Shown here: piece by piece, positions 36,651-40,113 of the stretch
Numbering within the stretch: position 1 is the first letter of the stretch
Layout: each line of letters begins with the position of its first letter
Assembly (NCBI GenBank): GCA_944390795.1
Contig: CALXRI010000002.1
Span: 1-64,000, forward strand
Source of the DNA: an uncultured Victivallales bacterium
GTDB lineage: Bacteria > Verrucomicrobiota > Lentisphaeria > Victivallales > UBA1829
DNA length: 64,000 nt
Direction of reading: 5' to 3'
Notes under the pieces: generated by a model
Databases searched by the model: none
Told to the model about the DNA's origin: nothing
What the model saw: only the letters and a program-made list of their open reading frames with translations
Position numbers and translations under genes: made by a program

Positions 36651-37925
36651 ATGGCTTTTTACGAGAAGAACATTATCACATGCGTCGAAATCGGGACGTC
36701 GAAGATCTGCGCCCTGCACGGCACCTGCGACAAGGCGGGAAATCCTGTCGTCCTCGGTTTCGGGCAGACTTCGCCGGAGGGAAGCGTCTGCAAAAGCGAC
36801 ATCACGGATTTTCATACCGTCACCAACGCGCTGGAAAAGGCTCTCGGGGATGCGGACCAGTCGGCAGGACACGATTTCGACAGAAAAAACGTCTACTGCG
36901 TCATGAACGGCGCCGGGATATTTTCCCGCCAGGGGGAAGGCAATGTAATCATCTACGACGCGGATCACAAAGTCAGGCAGAACCATATCGACGAGGCGGT
37001 AAGAAAGGCGCAGAGTCTCTCGCTGCCGCCCGATCAGGTTCACCTGAACTCCTTCGACTCCTATTTTCTCCTGGACTCCTGCCGGATCAGACAGAATCCG
37101 CTGGGCGCGCAGGCGAACCGCCTTGACGCATATCTTCATATCATTTCCGCCGAACGGAACCGGGTGGAAATGATCCGCGCCATTCTGAAGGAACTCGGAT
37201 TCGAAGGCGACATCTCCTGTGTTTTCTCCGGCATCGCCTCCGCATACGCGGCCCTTCGGACCGATGAAAAAAAACAGGGTGTCCTGCTGATCGACATGGG
37301 AGCGGGCGTGACGGACTATCTGCTCGTCCAGCGGGATGGAATCCTCGCCAGCGGCGTCCTGCCGGTCGGCACGGAGAACGTCGCAAACGATCTTTCCATC
37401 GGTCTGGAAATCGGAATAGAGCAGGCGCGCCGTTTCCTGAACGAATCGAAACTGGAGGACTATCGGGCCTCCGGCGCGGCATTCGTCGAATTCTCCGGAA
37501 CTGTTCAGAACACCAGACGCAGAATTCCGATCGGATCGTTTGAAAAAATCATTGAACTGCGCCTCCGCGAAACCTTCTCGATTATCCGGGAGCAGCTTGA
37601 GACCAGGGGACTCCTTTCAAAAATCGAAACGGGTATCGTATTCTGCGGAGGCGGGGCGGCAATCCCTGCCGCGTTGGAGGCTTTGCGCGGCGTGACGGGA
37701 ATGCACGTGCGGAAAGGGGAAACGCTCGGCGTCAGCGGCGCAATGAGCGGGATGGAGATCCCCTGCCGCTGCACAGCCCTGCTCGGACTGCTGAAATTCG
37801 CCGCGGACGTGGAAAACAGCACGGAGGCGGAAAGCGGACTCAGGAAGGTCGGGGATGTGCTGGAGGAATTCGGCGAAAGCTTCTTCCGGAAAGTCAAGGA
37901 TGTCACAAAGGGATTCAAGATATGA
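36651..37925 (+). CDS. ftsA: Cell division protein FtsA
   Basis: 424-aa actin-like protein that tethers FtsZ filaments to the inner membrane. Actin-fold ATP motifs are visible: phosphate-1 CVEIGTSKIC (11-20), phosphate-2 LLIDMGAGVTDY (212-223) and adenosine motif CGGGAAIPAALEAL (332-345). The 1C-type subdomain region lies around 85-165. The last 20 residues (EEFGESFFRKVKDVTKGFKI) form a basic, amphipathic helix fitting the membrane-targeting sequence. It overlaps ftsZ by 4 nt (ATGA). The family assignment is strengthened by this pairing; divergence from E. coli FtsA is considerable. Confidence 0.92.
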   Translation: MAFYEKNIITCVEIGTSKICALHGTCDKAGNPVVLGFGQTSPEGSVCKSDITDFHTVTNALEKALGDADQSAGHDFDRKNVYCVMNGAGIFSRQGEGNVIIYDADHKVRQNHIDEAVRKAQSLSLPPDQVHLNSFDSYFLLDSCRIRQNPLGAQANRLDAYLHIISAERNRVEMIRAILKELGFEGDISCVFSGIASAYAALRTDEKKQGVLLIDMGAGVTDYLLVQRDGILASGVLPVGTENVANDLSIGLEIGIEQARRFLNESKLEDYRASGAAFVEFSGTVQNTRRRIPIGSFEKIIELRLRETFSIIREQLETRGLLSKIETGIVFCGGGAAIPAALEALRGVTGMHVRKGETLGVSGAMSGMEIPCRCTALLGLLKFAADVENSTEAESGLRKVGDVLEEFGESFFRKVKDVTKGFKI

Positions 37926-39199
37926 CTGAAAACACCGAACAGACACTCGCAGACGCCGTGCGGCAGGATGCACCGGACAACCCGCAGCCGGACCGGAAAA
38001 TCATCGTCGTCGGAATCGGAGGAAACGGCGCAAAAATTCTGCACTCCTTTACTCATCTGCCAGGCAGCGCCCTTTACGATACCGCGGCAATCGACACAGA
38101 CAGGGAATCGCTCAGGCTTTCCGGCGCGAAATTCACAATTCAGGCGGAAGCGGACTGGACCATCAAAAGCGGACTCGGATGCGGGGGAGATGTCATGAAG
38201 GGGGAACGCGCCGTCGCACGGGAACGTTCCAGGATCACCCAGCTGCTCGCGGACTATGATTTCATCCTCGTGACGGGAGGGCTTGGATGCGGCACGGCGA
38301 CAGGCGGAATCCGGACGCTTGCAAGTGTCGCAAAAGGACTCGCCATTCCCGCCGTTTTTCTGCTGACAACTCCATTCTCCTTTGAATCCTACACAAAACG
38401 GAAAAACGCGGAAGACTGCATCGGCGAGCTTCTTCCCATCACGGAGGCGCTTGTCACCCTCCCGAACGATCTGCTGTTCTCCACGCTTCCCCCGGACGCA
38501 CCGGCGGAAGAGGCATTCGCAAGGGCCTCGGAGGAAATGGCTGCATCCGTGTTCGGAATGGGAGAAATCCTCCGAGCCAGAAAACTGATCGGAGCGGACT
38601 TCGCCGGATTCTCCTCCATTCTGCAGAAAAGAAAGACCTCCTGCGCAATCGGCATCGGCCGGGCGGATTCGGACGACGGGCTGGACCGTTGCGCACTGGC
38701 TCTGGAACGGATGCTGGAATCTCCGTTTCTCGGAGGTTCATCACGTCTGGAGTCCTCAAACGCCGTAATTCTTACGCTCACGGGCGGACCGGATCTCAGG
38801 ATTGATGAAATGAAGCGGGCTCTCGAAAACGCGTCCTCGGTTCTGCCTCAGGGAATCAACCTCATGACCGGAATCTCCGTCAATCCGGATTACGAAGCAC
38901 GGGTTCAGCTCAGCGTGCTTGCAGTCCGCTGCGATCAGACGCCGGAAACGAACCTGCCGCCGGCGGACGGGAAAAACGACACGCTCTGGAACCGCAGCAC
39001 GCCGGAAAAGAGTCCGGCTTCCCCCAGAAAGCAGACCCGGAGCGACATGATTCAGGACACCTTCAAGCTGGAAACGATCTCGAAGGGAATCTTTTCCAGA
39101 TCCGCGGCGGTCAAATACCGGGACGAGGATCTGGATGTTCCGACCTTTCAGAGACGCGGCATATCCATCGACAAGGGAAGCACAGGAAAAACCTCATGA
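37922..39199 (+). CDS. ftsZ: Divergent FtsZ-like tubulin homolog
   Basis: 425-aa tubulin/FtsZ GTPase-fold protein. Recognisable features: IIVVGIGGNGAKIL (26-40), DTAAIDTDRESL, SGLGCGGDVMKGERAV, and the tubulin signature as GCGTATG (122-128) in place of GGGTGTG. The T7 synergy loop reads GADFAG (224-229) instead of NxDxxD, so two conserved T7-loop residues, including the last catalytic Asp, are Gly. The C-terminal tail DLDVPTFQRRGI (about 403-414) resembles the FtsA/ZipA-binding peptide LDIPAFLRRQ. It is co-translated with ftsA and the following peptidase. It may be a polymerising but poorly hydrolysing FtsZ. The gene symbol reflects homology and context. Confidence 0.82.
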   Translation: MTENTEQTLADAVRQDAPDNPQPDRKIIVVGIGGNGAKILHSFTHLPGSALYDTAAIDTDRESLRLSGAKFTIQAEADWTIKSGLGCGGDVMKGERAVARERSRITQLLADYDFILVTGGLGCGTATGGIRTLASVAKGLAIPAVFLLTTPFSFESYTKRKNAEDCIGELLPITEALVTLPNDLLFSTLPPDAPAEEAFARASEEMAASVFGMGEILRARKLIGADFAGFSSILQKRKTSCAIGIGRADSDDGLDRCALALERMLESPFLGGSSRLESSNAVILTLTGGPDLRIDEMKRALENASSVLPQGINLMTGISVNPDYEARVQLSVLAVRCDQTPETNLPPADGKNDTLWNRSTPEKSPASPRKQTRSDMIQDTFKLETISKGIFSRSAAVKYRDEDLDVPTFQRRGISIDKGSTGKTS

Positions 39200-40113
39200 C
39201 AGCCATTCCTTTCCGACTGATTCCCCTGTCTGCGCTTCCCGTTCTTTTCTGCGCCTGCCTGAAAACGCCTTCTCCGCCTCCGCCGGAAGTGTCGGAATCC
39301 TGTGTATGGCGCTGCGCGGAACAGTCCGTTGCCTTCGGGAACCGCTGCTCGGGAAGTCCGGAGATCCGGAAATACGCGGCATGGATCCGGGAAACTGCCG
39401 CGAAATCCGCAAAATTCAAGGTGTATACGCACTCCTTCCGCGAATCCACGCCGCTCGGGGAGATGCTCTTTGAAAACATTATTGCGGAGATTTCCGGAAA
39501 AAGGGAAGATTTCATCCTCGTAGCGGCGCATTATGACATCAAACGCTTCCACCTTCTCCGGAATTTCCAGGGCGCCAATGACGGAGCCTCCGGAGTCGCC
39601 GCGCTTCTCGGCATGATTTCAGCTCTGCAGAAAAATGAGGAAAAGCCTCCGTGCGGAATCCGTTTCGTGTTTTTCGACGGGGAGGAATGCGTGAACGGAT
39701 ACGGAGAATCGGACGGGCTCCATGGAAGCAGACACCTTGCACGCGAGTGGGAGAAGAACGGGCTCCTCGGGAAATGCAGGGCGATGATCCTCCTTGACAT
39801 GATCGGAGACCGGGATCTCACGCTCACAATTCCGGAGAACTGCACGGCATATCTGAAGGAGAAGCTTCTGCGCATCGCAAAGGAAAGCGGTTTCCGCGGA
39901 ACATGCGCTCCATTCGGGTCCGCAATTCTGGACGATCATGTCCCGTTTCTGGAAAAAGGAGTTCCCGCCATCAACCTCATCGACTTTGAATATGGCCCCG
40001 GAAACGCATTCTGGCATACGGAAGAGGACACCCTGGATAAGATTTCAGGCTCAAGCATCAAGAGTGCAGCGGATCTGGCTCTGCGTTTATGCTGGGACAT
40101 CGGTGAAGATTGA
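39196..40113 (+). CDS. M28 peptidase, glutaminyl-peptide cyclotransferase type, exported
   Basis: 305-aa exported zinc enzyme. A signal peptide with a possible lipid-attachment Cys21 (LPVLFCAC) is followed by the M28 core: AAHYD (His112), GANDGASG (Asp129), FFDGEE (Glu163/164), LLDMIGDRD (Asp201) and FWHTEED (His274). The segment ESDGLHGSRHLAREW is like the DSLYGSRHLA of animal and bacterial glutaminyl cyclases, which turn N-terminal Gln into pyroglutamate; this subgroup binds one zinc. Its ATG overlaps the ftsZ stop by 4 nt, so it is part of the ftsA-ftsZ operon, an unexplained link. An aminopeptidase activity is the alternative. Confidence 0.85.
   Translation: MTAIPFRLIPLSALPVLFCACLKTPSPPPPEVSESCVWRCAEQSVAFGNRCSGSPEIRKYAAWIRETAAKSAKFKVYTHSFRESTPLGEMLFENIIAEISGKREDFILVAAHYDIKRFHLLRNFQGANDGASGVAALLGMISALQKNEEKPPCGIRFVFFDGEECVNGYGESDGLHGSRHLAREWEKNGLLGKCRAMILLDMIGDRDLTLTIPENCTAYLKEKLLRIAKESGFRGTCAPFGSAILDDHVPFLEKGVPAINLIDFEYGPGNAFWHTEEDTLDKISGSSIKSAADLALRLCWDIGED

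Follow-up and report, generated by a model that had tools for sequence, protein, structure and literature searches.

How far can the GTPase site of FtsZ decay in a bacterium that has no other FtsZ? The question is raised by a gene in a stretch of 64,000 nucleotides (hereafter the window) that forms positions 1 to 64,000 of contig CALXRI010000002.1 (assembly GCA_944390795.1), from an uncultured, gut-type Victivallales bacterium whose genome is a draft of 3.44-Mb, 95% complete. The gene lies at 37922..39199 on the forward strand, as do all window features given below, and encodes an FtsZ-family protein of 425 amino acids (aa). An earlier note, made from the sequence without database searches, had claimed that two T7-loop residues are lost and that the filaments would hydrolyse GTP slowly or not at all. 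As judged from homology and position, the protein is FtsZ, and it departs from the sequence criteria of canonical catalytic FtsZ that we tested. We favour, with some confidence, the view that it is a real, selected divisome FtsZ that binds GTP, polymerises and forms a static or slow scaffold tethered by FtsA, with very slow GTP hydrolysis.

A single ftsZ gene coupled to ftsA

The protein passes both Pfam cut-offs, with 63.6 bits for PF00091 (cut-off 33) and 37.1 bits for PF12327 (cut-off 27), the tubulin/FtsZ GTPase domain preceding the FtsZ C-terminal domain; with TIGR00065 it scores 168.8 bits, far below the equivalog cut-off of 295.2. The gene overlaps ftsA (36651..37925) by 4 nt (ATGA), and the FtsA product matches TIGR01174 at 206.9 bits, above the NCBIfam equivalog cut-off of 175.85, which bears out the earlier description of an FtsZ homologue encoded with ftsA. 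A PF00091 search of the host's own 3.44-Mb, 95%-complete genome returned a single tubulin-superfamily match, the window gene, and no second FtsZ; the claim of the earlier note also withstood this check.

An AlphaFold2 model built on a 33-sequence alignment has the FtsZ fold, with a predicted local distance difference test score (pLDDT) of 77 and a predicted template modelling score (pTM) of 0.71. All the top matches listed for it in the PDB are FtsZ, the best with an E-value of 8e-30, a probability of 1.00 and a TM-score of 0.85 (target length).

Changed residues in the catalytic site

Residue numbers such as N208, D210 and D213 are those of Bacillus subtilis and Staphylococcus aureus FtsZ (D213 is D212 of Escherichia coli), and the residues of the composite active site were chosen from crystallography and mutants of the S. 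aureus protein (PMC8936486). In that protein D210 and D213 hold the precatalytic water, which D210 positions by moving, N208 and its partner Q48 hold a K+ ion, and R143 provides an arginine-finger-like charge (PMC8936486). In the window protein, the T7 (synergy) loop (residues 224-229, 38591..38608, inside the interval 38573-38662 singled out by the earlier note) reads GADFAG in place of NxDxxD: N208 and D213 are both replaced by Gly, and D210 is kept as D226. This assignment is unambiguous, because the flanking LI-x-x-DFA aligns with B. subtilis FtsZ. D226 is the only acidic residue between positions 218 and 247, so that the missing position has no substitute Asp, and no new acidic residue was found in T7 or early H8; the claim therefore withstood the check for another Asp at the catalytic position.

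The T4 tubulin signature (residues 122-128, 38285..38305) reads GCGTATG, as had been noted, instead of the canonical GGGTGTG, and falls outside PS00227, [SAG]GGTG[SAT]G as quoted in PMC1845146; the A at its fifth place is common across the order. E62 (38105..38107) stands at the position of Q48 and K159 (38396..38398) at that of R143, so that N208, Q48 and R143 have become G, E and K. Alignment to canonical FtsZ further places K38 (38033..38035) at N25, a nucleotide contact in helix H1, and S203 (38528..38530) at D187, a guanine contact in canonical FtsZ. Other parts of the site are kept: the Mg2+-water ligand D46 as D60 (38099..38101), present in all Victivallales sequences aligned, the equivalent of G72, E139, N166, F183, and all P-loop glycines but two. 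Compared with the canonical FtsZ of E. coli, B. subtilis and S. aureus, with which it shares the fold, the domain order, the P-loop, T3, T5 and T6, D46, D210, the C-terminal FtsA-binding peptide and the ftsA linkage, the window protein thus differs by GxDxxG in T7, by GCGTATG in T4, by the loss of the K+-site pair Q48/N208, and, beyond these two motifs, by N25K, Q48E, R143K and D187S. The claim of two lost T7 residues is right for N208 and D213, but these did not go in one event, and N25K, R143K and D187S must be added to them.

Could such a sequence be a sequencing error, a misassembly or a pseudogene? The window does come from a draft of 66 contigs. An independent metagenome-assembled genome from within the genus (L060/L233, 88% identity), however, carries identical GADFAG and GCGTATG motifs and encodes the last Gly of T7 by GGC, where the window has the synonymous GGA, which argues for a real sequence and not an accident. 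In addition, the same kind of loss is seen in most of the order, and the ratio of non-synonymous to synonymous substitution rates (dN/dS) of the window gene against three congeners is 0.10-0.12, which indicates that the gene is functional. An artefact of any of these kinds is thereby refuted, and we attach next to no probability to it.

Within the genus, the linker is the least conserved part of the protein, and the C-terminal tail (dN 0.03-0.05) is among the most conserved; conservation (dN 0.03-0.10) extends to the P-loop, to the regions of D46, E139, N166 and F183, and to the C-terminal domain, which is complete. The tail is an extended peptide, GIFSRSAAVKYRDEDLDVPTFQRRGISIDKG (39086..39178), whose core EDLDVPTFQRR is, by its sequence, the predicted FtsA/ZipA-binding peptide. 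It is longer than usual in a way typical of the clade, GIF...Y.GEDLD(I/V)PTFQRR.I.IDKG, and its invariant D, P and R columns are among the most invariant of the family alignments.

Age and distribution of the losses

A PF00091 search across 137 genomes from the order gave matches in 130, with a single copy in nearly all. Among the aligned sequences from these, N208 survives in 20/130, D210 in 106/129 and D213 in 59/129; Q48 is almost absent, D46 and E139 are present in 100%, N166 in 91-100% depending on the family, the P-loop glycines are mostly kept, and position 143 is R or K in 121/126. Only about 11% of the window's own family has D213, the others having Thr, Ala, Ser, Gly, Val or Glu. The suspicion that the divergent loop might be a lineage trait was thus well founded. 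Four Victivallales genomes (G031, G071, G080 and G120) gave no FtsZ match and only partial, weak matches to the FtsA model (E ~1e-14 to 1e-15); since their close relatives have both genes, we read these as assembly gaps and not as loss of FtsZ. In one family member, the ftsZ gene (L244:3001-4299, apparently the same as two open reading frames of L031, 1342-2733) contains an in-frame TAG with homology running on both sides, which may be a nonsense mutation, a sequencing error or recoding.

On a tree built without the T7 columns in question, D213 changed at least 14 times and N208 at least 10 times. When states were reconstructed by parsimony on a larger FastTree tree that included outgroups, N208, Q48 and N25 came out as already lost in the ancestor of the Lentisphaeria (the class being so called from its named relatives), where D210 was kept, and D213 as still present in the ancestor of the order. 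The D213 site is occupied by Glu (GAA/GAG) in a congener (L014/L235) and in the sister genus, and the GGA of the window is one transition away from GAA. On these sequence grounds, the losses are of two ages: the Asn and its K+-site partner Gln48 disappeared anciently and class-wide, and the Asp recently, within the genus, by way of Glu.

The two carboxylates of T7 seem not to be lost independently. At least one of them is present in 123/126 sequences of the order, only three having lost both, and the sequences without D210 have mostly retained D213 (Fisher p 0.0005, ancestry not corrected for). This is suggestive of a one-carboxylate rule in the order, which, together with R or K at position 143, fits continued selection for some slow hydrolysis, or at least for an ordered water or a bound cation at the subunit interface.

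The cultured type species, Victivallis vadensis (L305, DSM 14823), belongs to the same order, and its FtsZ shows a comparable state: it is 37% identical to the window protein, has the same extended tail, N208A, D213N and a K at position 143, keeps D210 and, at T4, GGGTASG, and also fails the TIGR00065 equivalog cut-off, with 157.6 bits. Outside the class, many Verrucomicrobiota (outgroup loci L203-L232) likewise deviate from NxDxxD, and they often do so by the opposite loss, D210 being gone and D213 kept in an NxGLDD loop (L203-L205, L207, L209, L210, L212, L213), with N25 mostly kept. Several others, such as L208, L214 and L219, have the canonical NxDxxD, so that T7 has loosened within the phylum in more than one way. 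Two published accounts leave the loop undiscussed: one calls the FtsZ of Verrucomicrobium spinosum canonical (PMC1845146), and the other, a phylogeny, counts verrucomicrobial FtsZ among the most divergent groups (PMC9871819).

A proposed slow or static scaffold

What would such a protein do? It would bind GTP through its largely intact P-loop, polymerise, and be anchored at the membrane by FtsA, which would hold it by the conserved C-terminal peptide. The composite site formed between two subunits would be partly dismantled, since the K+-locking pair N208/Q48 and the second water-holding carboxylate, D213, are gone, and the positive charge is weakened by the replacement of the Arg finger by Lys. 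D226, the counterpart of the swinging residue D210 that places the catalytic water, would be the one carboxylate left. GTP hydrolysis is then expected to be very slow, well below 10% of that of canonical FtsZ, which would make the filaments stable, slowly turning or static, and so a scaffold instead of a treadmilling ring. Given that D210 is kept, hydrolysis in the window species is more likely to be very slow than dead, and of the two outcomes first proposed, slow and non-hydrolysing, the former is to be preferred. In the host and its relatives, division may proceed with an FtsZ that lacks the usual dynamics.

This expectation leans on mutants of model proteins. In S. aureus, Q48A and R143K reduce GTPase activity ~6-fold and stabilise filaments (PMC8936486). 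E. coli D212G is the same Asp-to-Gly change, homologous to G229 of the window protein; its GTPase was about tenfold lower in a membrane-targeted chimera, a value of <1% is quoted for the protein, and its filaments and rings are static (PMC7320174). As the only FtsZ of the cell, it supports division only with one genomic suppressor (PMC5405962). The earlier note's description of D212G as a mutant of very low GTPase activity was therefore right in substance, but its allele name, ftsZ2, was not confirmed in the literature consulted. D212G is a laboratory mutant, whereas the window protein is natural, is the only FtsZ of its host, and had already lost N208 and Q48 before the Asp.

A tubulin that lacks the catalytic acid in T7 is not without precedent. 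The beta-tubulin loop is of this kind, hence the nucleotide of its neighbour is left unhydrolysed, and beta-tubulin alternates with catalytic alpha-tubulin. It thus has a catalytic partner in the heterodimer, whereas no partner tubulin was found in the window genome. Another natural FtsZ with reported low GTPase is that of Ca. Thiosymbion oneisti (PMC8953583); the window protein differs from it in that its loss concerns catalytic residues.

Several observations weigh against a slow or static scaffold. The S. aureus mutants N208L, D210N and D213N lose assembly altogether, and not hydrolysis alone (PMC8936486), so that mutants of canonical FtsZ are not predictive in this background. The FtsZ of V. 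spinosum is essential (PMC12283558), and taken with the NxGLDD loops of its relatives, this means that a non-canonical T7 is by itself no proof of broken function. Within the core of the model, confidence is low around T7 (pLDDT ~54 for residues 221-230), and the model is therefore silent on compensation by another residue. Finally, the one-carboxylate rule is backed by raw counts, phylogenetically independent pairs being too few for a verdict.

It could be proposed that the active site is compensated, D226 and a rearranged Glu62, Lys159 and Lys38 supporting ordinary hydrolysis and treadmilling without K+. D210, kept in 106/129 sequences of the order, is the residue whose movement places the water (PMC8936486), one T7 carboxylate is almost always retained, and many pocket residues have changed together in a gene under purifying selection. 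However, single changes of N208, Q48, R143 or D213 all weaken model FtsZs or leave them inactive, no new acid has appeared in T7 or early H8 of the window protein, and relatives proceed to lose the entire T7 loop. We consider compensation unlikely on balance. A missing catalytic group could also be provided in trans, by FtsA or another divisome protein; ftsA is coupled to ftsZ by the 4-nt overlap, and the FtsA is canonical by the curated cut-off. No candidate partner was found in this analysis, however, and we know of no FtsA that contributes a catalytic residue to FtsZ, which makes hydrolysis in trans highly improbable.

Further erosion in related lineages

In another family of the class (f21), an ftsZ-like gene lies directly 3' of ftsA in the neighbourhoods inspected, and becomes increasingly unlike FtsZ. 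Some members retain both domains with broken T4, T6 or T7 motifs (L157, L158, L166, L176, L177). In nine genomes from four genera (L162-L164, L178, L179, L181, L184, L185, L187), only a remnant of ~250-300 residues is found, in which the P-loop is altered, the T7 loop and the C-terminal domain are deleted, and the FtsA-binding tail is kept. In a profile-profile alignment with FtsZ (probability 99.85%, E 1e-30), the N-terminal part and the tail of the remnants match, and the T7 loop and the entire C-terminal domain are skipped. These remnants are not debris, because their dN/dS is 0.11-0.22, their architecture is common to several genera, and one of them sits in a single-contig genome (G167). 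A genus designated g56 has a 350-aa FtsZ relative without P-loop and with a tail-like end (L180:1204-2220, L182:1231-2271, L183:1177-2217); its dN/dS is ~0.06 where measurable, and it is not beside ftsA. A search of the f21 and g56 genomes with an FtsZ model found no better FtsZ.

These remnants raise the possibility that the window protein is itself already mainly an FtsA-binding adaptor, some other system setting the division site. Its tail is better conserved than its catalytic loop, the nucleotide contacts N25 and D187 are lost, and proteins of 250-300 aa without T7 loop or C-terminal domain keep the ftsA linkage, the tail and purifying selection. The window protein, however, has most of the P-loop glycines, D46, E139, N166, F183 and a complete C-terminal domain (dN 0.03-0.10), and we think it improbable that the adaptor stage has been reached there. 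Taking the window species and f21 together, one may propose that, behind ftsA, the FtsZ GTPase of the Lentisphaeria is being dismantled stepwise: first the K+ site, next the second carboxylate (the window), then the P-loop, and lastly T7 and the C-terminal domain, until the FtsA-binding tail is the most recognisable part left. A treadmilling GTPase would become a static scaffold and then an FtsA adaptor, a visible halfway stage towards division without FtsZ as in Planctomycetota and Chlamydiota. We hold the chances of this scenario being right or wrong to be about equal. No report of such an erosion series was found in the literature searched, subscription papers being outside its scope.

All the f21 and g56 genomes scanned with an alignment named A4 contain a second, highly conserved tubulin-superfamily protein of 367-398 aa (among others, L131:3953-5053, L170:3125-4249 and L167:3609-4709), with an invariant GGGTG.G (an intact GGGTGNG) and an invariant DxED in a T7-like loop. 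Neither the window genome nor most Victivallales have it. A small gene of ~107-122 codons, abutting or overlapping, precedes its gene in five of six listed neighbourhoods, and plasmid TubZ/RepX is among its weaker PDB matches, so that it is possibly part of a chromosomal TubRZ-like system. A hand-over of division to this tubulin is not claimed: the gene order resembles TubR-TubZ, and a role in DNA segregation is as likely as one in division. The A4 protein makes it harder to argue that f21 wholly lacks a dynamic tubulin, and has no bearing on the window species. It is also present in much of the Lentisphaeria, as well as in G242 and G343; its PF00091 score is weak, and no Pfam or NCBIfam family properly covers it.

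Neighbouring and other genes

The gene 3' of the window ftsZ (39196..40113) overlaps it by 4 nt, again ATGA, and is M28-peptidase-like by eye. A peptidase-like gene resembling it also follows the FtsZ relative of g56. The host genome contains three genes of the FtsW/RodA family.

Implications for division in the Lentisphaeria

A central role in bacterial cytokinesis is ascribed to the GTP-driven turnover of FtsZ, and in a review and a survey of the Planctomycetes-Verrucomicrobia-Chlamydiae (PVC) bacteria, Lentisphaerota count as dividing by FtsZ in the ordinary way (PMC5147048, PMC12283558). Should the residue losses described here mean the same as in model FtsZs, division would rely on a slow or static FtsZ throughout an order, and in a further family of the class on an FtsZ scarcely able to be a GTPase. 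These lineages, including the cultured type strain V. vadensis DSM 14823, would then be natural tests of the need for treadmilling, and candidate intermediates for the loss of FtsZ in other PVC phyla.
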